This document shows, one piece after another, positions 8,050 through 56,592 of a DNA stretch of 64,000 bases. The notes beneath the pieces were generated by a model. The model searched no databases. It was not told the origin of the DNA and saw nothing but the letters and a program-made list of their open reading frames with translations. Made by a program: the position numbers and the translations under genes. Where the stretch lies: positions 1 through 64,000 of the forward strand of contig JARKPR010000090.1 in NCBI GenBank assembly GCA_029975165.1, read 5' to 3'. This stretch comes from Selenomonadales bacterium. Lineage in GTDB: Bacteria; Bacillota; Negativicutes; Sporomusales; UBA7701. The first letter of the stretch is position 1. Each line of letters begins with the position of its first letter.

Positions 8050-8352
8050 ATGAATCTGAGAATAACGCCGAAGGCGCGGGAAATCGTCGCCGATCGCGGC
8101 AACAACGTCACCGTCGGCCTGGACAAACAAGTTTGCTATAGCTGAGGCGGGGCTCAGTCGCGAGACATCCCGTCCGTGCGATGGGGCATGCCTAAACCAG
8201 CCGAGCTTGGCGAATACGAAAAAGCGAACATTGACGGCGTGTCCGTTTATGTTCATAATGCAATCAGGGGCGCCGCCAATGCCCGCATTGACGTGGTGAC
8301 CGGCGGAGTGGGCACTAAGCTCATACTTCTGGGATTTGCCGGGAGCAAATAA
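8050..8352 (+). CDS. Small HesB/CC-Se-like selenoprotein (UGA = Sec)
   Basis: The ATG at 8050 follows GGCGGAAG. The frame reads 31 residues, hits TGA at 8143-8145, and continues open to TAA at 8350-8352 with consistent protein-like sequence (GKPKPAELGEY-like loop, then IDGVSVYVHN). With UGA as selenocysteine it is a 100-residue protein containing CYSUGG, a CxxU redox motif at residues 29-32. Length and layout resemble the small (seleno)proteins of the HesB-like or CC/Se-motif type, in which Cys often replaces Sec. A stem-loop follows the UGA, and a YedE selenium module lies at 55 kb. The alternative is a pseudogene with a nonsense codon. No selA/B/C/D genes are in the window. Confidence 0.7.
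8146..8186 (+). promoter_or_regulatory. Candidate bacterial SECIS element
   Basis: Directly after the UGA, GGCGGG (8146-8151) can pair with CCCGTC (8169-8174) with an inner CTC/GAG helix and loop AGTCGC. An alternative hairpin pairs TCCC (8168-8171) with GGGG (8183-8186) and has a loop starting GT about 26 nt after the UGA, closer to the usual bacterial spacing. Bacterial SECIS elements need a G near the start of the apical loop, and both candidates have a GU there. I cannot decide between them by eye. Confidence 0.45.
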
Positions 8353-17107: not shown

Positions 17108-17123
17108 GTAGGTGGACAAGTTC

Positions 17124-17197
17124 ATAGCTCGTATAATTTTGGGGATATGGCTCAAAAGTAGCTACCGGGCGACCGTAAATCGCCTGACTACGGGTGA
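17124..17197 (+). ncRNA. Guanine-class purine riboswitch aptamer
   Basis: The conserved purine-aptamer blocks are present in order: TATAAT (17132-17137), GGATATGG in loop 2 (17143-17150), CTACC (17162-17166), CCGTAAA in loop 3, and GACTAC (17186-17191). P1 pairs CTCGT (17128-17132) with ACGGG (17190-17194), P2 is seven base pairs and P3 seven. The ligand-pairing nucleotide is C (17188), which means guanine rather than adenine type. The junction 2/3 reads GTAGCTACC instead of the usual GTTTCTACC, so the base normally a U that makes the triple with the P1 pair is a G (17161). Confidence 0.9.
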
Positions 17198-17200
17198 AAG

Positions 17201-17303
17201 TGTACCTAGGGTTCCGCAGGCGGGGCGCAGCGTCCCGCGTGGCCTGGACCGAGTGGTACAGGCGCCGCTGACGGCGTTACACCGGAGGGATAAAAACCCG
17301 GGC
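17201..17303 (+). ncRNA. ykkC-class aptamer, probable PRPP riboswitch
   Basis: Four nucleotides after the guanine aptamer begins a ykkC-class aptamer. Diagnostic blocks are CTAGGGTTCCG (17206-17216), CTGGACCGAG (17244-17253) and ACACCGGAGGGATAAAAACC (17279-17298). Subtype assignment (PRPP rather than ppGpp or guanidine) rests on the direct tandem with a guanine aptamer and the downstream purine genes, an arrangement described for PRPP riboswitches. It would raise expression when PRPP is plentiful. Confidence 0.8.
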
Positions 17304-17357
17304 GGGGAGGTTTCGCTCATTACGAGACGGAGATTCTCCCGCCTGGTTTATTATTTT
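17301..17357 (+). terminator. Riboswitch expression-platform terminator
   Basis: GGCGGGGAG (17301-17309) pairs with CTCCCGCC (17336-17343) with a single-base bulge, and inner TTTCG (17311-17315) with CGAGA (17323-17327). TGGTTTATTATTTT follows. The 5' arm overlaps the end of the ykkC aptamer, so ligand binding and terminator formation compete. Confidence 0.75.
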
Positions 17358-17441
17358 CCGGCAAGGGCGGGGAAAGGATAAAAATAACAGCGCGACGGGT
17401 ATACTGAGAGTCAGTCCGAAATAATGGAAAAAGGTGAGAAG

Positions 17442-54871: not shown

Positions 54872-55052
54872 AACGTCACCCCGTTCTGTTGACTTGATAT
54901 ATTTCTTCGGCACGACGACACGTTTTCCTGGCTTTGCCAGCCAGGGAAATTTTTTTTACGGTTCGGCAGGAAAGGTTATAGCTGTTATAGAATAATCATG
55001 CTTGTATTAAAAATATAATCTATATGTGGACGAATTAGACAGGAGTGATTGT

Positions 55053-56126
55053 ATGGCATGGGTTTTGATCATCGCCACCGGCGTGGTGTTCGGCCTGGGG
55101 GCGGTGCTGCTCGTCAAGGCCGGCAACCCCGGCAACTACGGCTTTTGCGCCGCCTGCCACCTGCGTGACATCGCCGGCGCTTTGGGTATCCACCAGGTTG
55201 CCACTTTGCAGTATGTGCGGCCGGAGATCCTCGGCTTCGTGCTCGGCGCGTTCGCTTTGGCCAAGACCGGGGGCGAGTTTCGGCCCCGCGGCGGTTCCAA
55301 GCCGCTGGTGAGGTTCGTCCTCGGCGCGCTGATGGTGATCGGCGCGCTCGTCTTCCTCGGCTGCCCGCTGCGCGGCATTCTCCGCCTGGCCGGCGGGGAC
55401 CTCAACGGCATTACCGGTCTGGCGGGCTTCGCCTTCGGCGTCGCCTCCGGGACAGTCTTCCTGAAGGGCGGGTTCAACCTCGGCCGCGCCCATGCCTACA
55501 GCGGCGGGACCGGGCGCTGGGCCGGCTACCTGGCGGCAGCGGCGGCGCTCGTGCTGCTCGTCGGCGTCGCCACCCACGCGGCGTGGCTCAAATTCAGCGC
55601 CCAAGGCCCCGGCGCACAGCATGCGCCCATGTTCTTCAGCCTGATCGCCGGTCTGGCGGCCGGGGGCCTGGCGTGGCGGACCCGCATGTGCCTGAGCGGC
55701 GGCATCCGCGACTTCCTGCTGGTCCGCGACACCTACCTGCTGAAAATATATGTCGTCATTTTCGCAGCCGCCGTGGCCGGCAACCTGGCGTTCGGCACCT
55801 TCAAGCTGGGCTTTGCCGGCCAGCCGCTCGCCCATACCGCCCATCTGTGGAACTTCCTCGGCCTTTACCTCACCGGCCTCGCCGCCGTTCTCGCCGGCGG
55901 CTGCCCCCTCCGCCAGCTCATCATGAGCGGCGAAGGCAGCACCGACGCCATGTTCACCGTGCTGGGCATGCTGGCCGGCGCGGGCATATCCCACGGCCTT
56001 AACGCCGCCGCCAGCGGCGCCGGGGTGCCGGTCGGCGGCCAGATCGCCGTCGTGGCCGGCATCGTAGTCACCGCCGCCATCGGTCTGGCATTCCGGGAAA
56101 CGATCGCTGTAGCCAGGGAGGCGTAA
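55053..56126 (+). CDS. yedE: YedE-family selenium transporter (putative)
   Basis: ATG 55053 follows AGGAG; the longer frame from 55026 has no site. The 357-residue protein has about ten membrane segments with two YeeE/YedE-type repeats. Characteristic cysteines lie in FCAACHLRD (about residue 31), LGCPLRG (about 104), RTRMCLSGG (about 210) and GGCPLRQ (about 280). YedE proteins are associated with selenium uptake or trafficking, usually next to TusA-like and DUF3343 genes, as here. An A+T-rich leader of 180 bp separates it from LysR; a TATAAT occurs at 55014. Confidence 0.85.
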   Translation: MAWVLIIATGVVFGLGAVLLVKAGNPGNYGFCAACHLRDIAGALGIHQVATLQYVRPEILGFVLGAFALAKTGGEFRPRGGSKPLVRFVLGALMVIGALVFLGCPLRGILRLAGGDLNGITGLAGFAFGVASGTVFLKGGFNLGRAHAYSGGTGRWAGYLAAAAALVLLVGVATHAAWLKFSAQGPGAQHAPMFFSLIAGLAAGGLAWRTRMCLSGGIRDFLLVRDTYLLKIYVVIFAAAVAGNLAFGTFKLGFAGQPLAHTAHLWNFLGLYLTGLAAVLAGGCPLRQLIMSGEGSTDAMFTVLGMLAGAGISHGLNAAASGAGVPVGGQIAVVAGIVVTAAIGLAFRETIAVAREA

Positions 56127-56335
56127 TGATGGAAAAGACGCTCGATCTGCGGGGCCTGAGCTGCCCCATCCCTCTCATCCGGACACGGGACGCCCTGGCG
56201 GACGCCGCCGCCGTCACCATAATCGTCGACGAGCCGGCGCCGCGCGAGAACATCATCAAATTCGCCAAGGCGCAGAACTACAAGGTAGAGAGTACGGTCG
56301 CCGGCGGCGAAGCGACGATCGTCATCCGCAAATGA
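56126..56335 (+). CDS. TusA/YedF-like sulfur or selenium carrier protein
   Basis: The 69-residue protein has the family signature LDLRGLSCPIPLIRTRDAL with the active Cys (residue 13). It forms a persulfide or perselenide that is handed on. It lies in frame-overlap with YedE (stop/start TAATG); ATG 56129 is an equally good start. Together with DUF3343 it completes a selenium-handling unit. Confidence 0.85.
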   Translation: MMEKTLDLRGLSCPIPLIRTRDALADAAAVTIIVDEPAPRENIIKFAKAQNYKVESTVAGGEATIVIRK

Positions 56336-56592
56336 CGGATAAGGCGGCCGACTTCTGGGTGATAACCTTCCCGTCGGTCCATCATGCCCTGCGGGCCGAA
56401 AAAGTGCTGGCCGCCGCCGGCATCGCCACGACCCTCATCCCCATCCCCCGCGAGCTCGGCGGCTCGTGCGAGGGGCTGGCCGCTAGGCTGGCGGAGGGGG
56501 ACGTGGCCGCGGCGGCGGCGGTCCTGACGGCGGCCGGCGTGCCGATGGTCAAGCAGGGGGTAAGGATAAAGGGCAAAAGCATATGGCGTTAG
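56332..56592 (+). CDS. DUF3343 putative Se/S carrier
   Basis: The 86-residue protein matches DUF3343: WVITFPSVHHALRAEKVLAAAG at the N-terminus, LIPIPRELGGSCEGLAARL with a central Cys (about residue 46), and a C-terminal GVRIKGKSIWR. Such proteins are co-encoded with YedE and TusA-like genes in selenium-using bacteria. The ATG overlaps the upstream stop. A terminator follows. Confidence 0.85.
   Translation: MTDKAADFWVITFPSVHHALRAEKVLAAAGIATTLIPIPRELGGSCEGLAARLAEGDVAAAAAVLTAAGVPMVKQGVRIKGKSIWR

Follow-up and report, generated by a model that had tools for sequence, protein, structure and literature searches.

A small gene with an in-frame UGA encodes a probable CC/Se motif family selenoprotein with a predicted IscA-like fold

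Introduction

In the contig stretch analysed here (64,000 nt, referred to below as the window), a short frame on the forward strand runs from an ATG at 8050 to a TAA at 8350-8352 and is otherwise open except for a single in-frame TGA at 8143-8145. Does this TGA end a short peptide or specify selenocysteine (Sec) and, if the latter, what might the protein do? A sequence-only reading had taken the frame as a small selenoprotein of the CC/Se or HesB-like type, with the UGA in a C-x-x-U-G-G context, and had placed a ribosome-binding site before the ATG. The coordinates of the frame were exact, and a purine-rich stretch, GGGAGAAGG, that resembles a ribosome-binding site is present upstream of the ATG.

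The reading frame and its family

Read through the UGA, the CDS (8050..8352, + strand) specifies 100 aa with Sec as residue 32, in the context CYSUGG (motif C29-x-x-U32-G-G). The prediction that gene callers would split or miss it holds in that a plain ORF scan did not report the frame 8050-8352, but the family is already modelled at NCBI. The length of the frame is not informative: for the base composition of the window, the chance probability of 68 open codons behind a TGA is about 0.13, 31 comparable ATG-TGA-open frames are found in this GC-rich window, and the open-frame statistics for 8050-8352 are not significant. As the open frame is compatible with chance and the local RNA fold is ordinary (see below), the case must rest on homology. 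What lies above chance level is the homology, the conservation of the TGA, the constraint on synonymous codons and the covarying stem-loop. On these comparisons, the frame is almost certainly a selenoprotein gene, and from them we infer Sec insertion at UGA 8143, the identity of the gene and its SECIS both being supported.

The Sec-read protein matches NF041239, the 'CC/Se motif family (seleno)protein' model (Moor_selen_rel), with 46.4 bits, a score only 6 bits over the curated cut-off of 40, and the gene was recovered with 40.9 bits in the genome search. A Pfam search of the 100-aa protein gave no match, including to PF01521 (Fe-S_biosyn), and the TIGR01911 model for HesB-like selenoproteins did not match it even at E 10. 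A 2026 review (PMC13188914) includes the NF041239 family among the CxxU selenoproteins and gives Moorella thermoacetica as the organism in which it was first predicted. The product of 8050-8352 is a new member of this already named selenoprotein family, and the family itself is not new. The protein shares with NF041239 members the Sec or Cys at the defining column, the small size and a P-S-V-R-x-G motif. However, it falls in a separate CxxUGG...QSRDIPSVRWG subgroup, whereas most other members have CC/CU, U-x4-C or FGUGG. A sister subfamily of NF041239 ends in CC.

NF041239 family members were found in 38 of 60 related genomes. The genome that includes the window has five: in four of them a single TGA interrupts the frame, and the fifth ('TCC') has Cys throughout. 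When 92 members were aligned, 54 had U in the Sec32 column, 37 had C and one had S, so that the Sec or Cys called for by the sequence-only reading is present in 91 of the 92. Six direct orthologues, which are 66-87 % identical to the 8050-8352 protein and all retain the TGA, come from four further members of the genus, from Sporomusa silvacetica DSM 10669 and from the Bacillota MAG CTSoil_073. They share the signature CxxU plus QSRD(I/Y)PSVRWG, and C-x-x-U is strict in 7/7 when the 8050-8352 gene is counted in. A more distant, diverged homologue (G014:C71) has Cys at the Sec32 column (CYACAG). Codon changes 3' of the TGA among the genus orthologues are mostly synonymous (e.g. 15 synonymous versus 7 non-synonymous).

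The finished genome of the genus (G001) contains 11 CC/Se family hits. Several of these genes lie within 25 kb (L118, G001:C1:495000-513500), and a further one, at 520759, is interrupted by a TAG.

The SECIS stem-loop

The bacterial SECIS model used here, taken from PMC13188914, requires an apical loop of 3-9 nt, an upper stem of at least 4 bp, a G at loop position 1 or 2, a distance of 16-37 nt between the UGA and the loop, and an MFE of -7.5 kcal/mol or lower. The apical stem-loop at 8168..8186 (+ strand) agrees with the model on every point, with a 7 bp stem (8168-8174/8180-8186), the loop CGUGC (8175-8179) with GU at positions 2 and 3, a distance of 29 nt 3' of UGA 8143, and -8.8 kcal/mol. 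Generic folding of 8140-8200 alone gave nothing unusual (z = -0.89), and the folds of the entire 54-nt stretch that follows the UGA differ among the orthologues, the apical stem-loop being the sole part they share. The SECIS signal is seen because Sec and Cys members were compared, and does not come from folding 8140-8200 alone.

The stem-loop lies within the stretch coding for the conserved P-S-V-R-x-G motif, whose codons in Sec members are nearly frozen as CCR TCC GTG CGA NNG GG. The Ser codon is TCC in 48/49 Sec members versus 4/17 Cys members (Fisher p 1.5e-9) and the Val codon is GTG in 48/52 versus 7/30 (p 1.6e-10), though the sequences are related and not independent and these p-values, like the covariation statistics, are only indicative. 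All six consensus stem pairs are formed in 52 of 54 Sec members but in only 4 of 36 Cys members. Compensatory changes are found at two of the stem pairs (G-C/G-U/A-U and U-A/U-G/G-C). In the covariation alignment, which left out two strongly diverged Sec members, eight cells were changed on both sides; none of 500 shuffles was as high, and slid pairings collapse. As an independent check, the consensus CCRTCCGTGVGRNNGGG was searched for in five whole genomes of the genus. This gave 27 hits, versus one for the control, and 26 of the 27 lie in family genes with a TGA. In the genome that includes the window there are four hits, which coincide with its four TGA-containing members. Stem-loops had been noticed after the UGA; the element at 8168-8186 fits the SECIS model, covaries, and constrains synonymous codon choice in Sec members but not in Cys members.

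One all-Cys family member (L105, G008:C6:46144-46434) still has an intact SECIS stem-loop and looks like a recent Sec-to-Cys replacement.

Predicted fold and possible roles

An AlphaFold2 model built with 59 family sequences had a pLDDT of 83 and a pTM of 0.69. The top three Foldseek matches, which were the sole significant ones, are all IscA (E 2.4e-4 to 6.7e-4, with a probability of 1.00 at E 2.4e-4). With VIA-align, the predicted model gave Z 9.4 to IscA (87 residues, rmsd 3.1) and 9.0 to SufA, and nine of the ten chains listed, covering nearly the whole model, are of the IscA/HesB type or annotated as Fe-S biosynthesis proteins or uncharacterised relatives. PF01521 matched 6 of the 59 family relatives weakly (best E 9e-4). 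Judged from the model, the 8050-8352 protein very probably has an IscA-like (IscA/SufA) fold. The 'HesB-like' label is therefore apt at the level of fold, but not at the level of family, as TIGR01911 does not match. The TIGR01911 proteins and the 8050-8352 protein are both small selenoproteins of IscA/HesB type, the fold being predicted here and the HesB name coming from the literature, but the TIGR01911 motif is UxGP and that of the 8050-8352 protein is CxxUGG.

In an hhalign comparison using the larger family alignment, residue 32 lies opposite Cys35 of E. coli IscA, a weak alignment with a probability of 30 %; the IscA query sequence differs from PDB 1s98 by one residue. A profile comparison of the seven orthologues alone with IscA found nothing. 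A search of solved-structure sequences with the family profile returned gp120 only, and these were set aside as chance matches. Cys35 of IscA is an iron or cluster ligand, and on the weak alignment Sec32 may sit in its place. The likeness to the A-type Fe-S carriers IscA and SufA (PF01521) extends to predicted fold, length and the position of the first ligand. The protein differs from them in having no C-terminal CGC, in the replacement of Cys35 by Sec, and in the lack of a Pfam match.

We propose that SelB and Sec-tRNA would decode UGA 8143 as Sec, guided by the stem-loop at 8168-8186, and that the product would be a small protein like the A-type carriers. The selenolate of Sec32, aided by Cys29, could bind a soft metal or an Fe-S cluster and then hand it on. 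Overall, an IscA-like carrier with Sec as the soft-metal or cluster ligand is the best explanation, and we consider it, on balance, probable. The narrower choice of a ligand or carrier role rather than a redox enzyme is close to evenly poised, and leans slightly towards doubt. Among the cysteine positions, only the Sec/Cys column is invariant across the family. Some members have no second thiol, and in the others it is placed at -3, -1, +1 or +5 or within a CC tail at the C-terminus. Such variability agrees more readily with a ligand to a metal or cluster than with a redox pair of fixed positions. In G023:C20, a Sec member, Cys is lacking altogether, so that an internal selenenylsulphide is impossible in that protein, which also counts for the ligand role. 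Counted against the explanation as a whole are the absence of CGC, the lack of a Fe-S_biosyn match, the hhalign probability of 30 %, and the failure to find selA, selB and selD (see below). A further point against it is that CxxU is a classic redox motif.

The leading alternative is that the protein is a redox selenoenzyme, in which a reversible Cys29-Sec32 selenenylsulphide would serve to reduce disulphides, peroxides or a sulphur or selenium compound, possibly in concert with the PatB C-S lyase encoded upstream. Cys29 is strictly kept in the CxxUGG subgroup, and a CxxU redox role is therefore a serious rival. CxxU is typical of redox selenoproteins according to PMC13188914, and the operon-like link to PatB within the genus also speaks for such an enzyme. 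However, the predicted fold is IscA-like and not thioredoxin-like, and in the wider family the partner thiol is not kept with the Sec/Cys column. We regard a redox role as possible, but it is not the reading we prefer.

Genomic neighbourhood

A PatB family C-S lyase gene (TIGR04350; 6753..7973, + strand) is directly upstream, and this order is kept in G001, G003 and G004. It is preceded by a gene for a BenE family membrane transporter (PF03594; 5605..6705, + strand), and the order BenE-type transporter, PatB C-S lyase, selenoprotein gene, with short spacing, is that of the genus; in G002, BenE directly precedes the selenoprotein gene. In this genus, the PatB gene and the selenoprotein gene are probably in the same operon. 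The gene has other neighbours in Sporomusa silvacetica and CTSoil_073, where the PatB link is lost.

The YedE/TusA/DUF3343 selenium handling module reported for the window by the sequence-only reading is real (55026..56592, + strand), with YedE (TIGR04112) at 55026-56126, TusA at 56126-56335 and DUF3343/Se_S_carrier at 56332-56592, though it is 47 kb from the selenoprotein gene. Given this distance, a functional link between the two is unsupported.

The adjoining PatB gene, and the selenium transporter module that the window also contains, could point to a carrier of sulphane or selenane (persulphide or perselenide), which would take these from the C-S lyase or the YedE/TusA/DUF3343 route to an acceptor. 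With the module so distant and PatB not retained beside the orthologues in S. silvacetica and CTSoil_073, this is unlikely, and the IscA-like carrier with a Sec ligand is preferred.

Elsewhere in the window, an Rfam search identified a purine riboswitch at 17109-17210 (77.7 bits), upstream of a permease gene at 17424. A Guanidine-I match at 17195-17306 (63.1 bits, just at the cut-off) overlaps it, the two together spanning 17109-17306.

Sec-decoding machinery

A search for selA, selB, selC and selD had been suggested. Two full-length, differing tRNA-Sec genes are present on one contig of the genome that includes the window (G000:C3:114974 and 52777; L020:1501-1597 and L021:1501-1596), and G001, G002 and G004 have one each. 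However, none of selA, selB and selD was found over the cut-off in this assembly, which is 96 % complete. A selA gene is present in the three fully complete (100 %) genomes of the genus, and was also not found in G003 (87 % complete). In the finished genome G001, selB adjoins selA, near parA/parB. When this block was compared with the genome that includes the window, the parB match was only 32 % identical and the rest consisted of short, weak DNA matches. In view of these weak matches the selAB region is read as unassembled, and we infer that this stretch is missing from the 96 %-complete assembly, with parB seemingly missing as well. Among genomes carrying the family, TGA members are found in 20 of the 22 with selA versus 3 of the 9 without (p 0.003).

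The second tRNA-Sec gene is followed, after approximately 170 bp, by TniQ (PF06527) and TniB/AAA-like genes (L144:7243-8651), which suggest a Tn7/Tn5053-like element, or a remnant of one, beside it.

The failure to find selA, selB and selD could also mean that Sec decoding has been lost and that the gene is a decaying relic yielding a 31-residue stub. We consider this very improbable, as the genome retains both copies of tRNA-Sec and four TGA-containing family genes with intact SECIS elements and open frames, complete genomes of the genus have selA, with selB alongside in the finished one, and the weak parB and block matches are as expected for an unassembled stretch. That the TGA is a sequencing error, or a normal stop followed by chance by an open stretch, has a negligible probability. 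Such frames are indeed frequent in a window this rich in GC, but seven genomes share the TGA at this codon, selection at the protein level is seen 3' of it, and the SECIS codon and covariation statistics also count against this reading.

Implications

Standard annotation would truncate or miss the gene at 8050-8352. To the named family, this analysis adds the SECIS evidence, the assignment of an IscA-type fold and an alignment of Sec with a known ligand position, and the SECIS, now defined, can be searched for by pattern. The CC/Se family gains a predicted IscA-type fold and a Sec matched to a metal ligand. The natural series of Sec and Cys members, often within one genome, could be used to test what Sec contributes. 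Tentatively, the CC/Se family might form a branch within the A-type Fe-S carriers that uses selenium, with Sec standing in for the key ligand Cys35. If so, its members would carry a cluster or soft metal that the Cys versions bind less well, and the family would have multiplied in anaerobic Sporomusa-like bacteria, as seen in the 11 hits in one finished genome of the genus.
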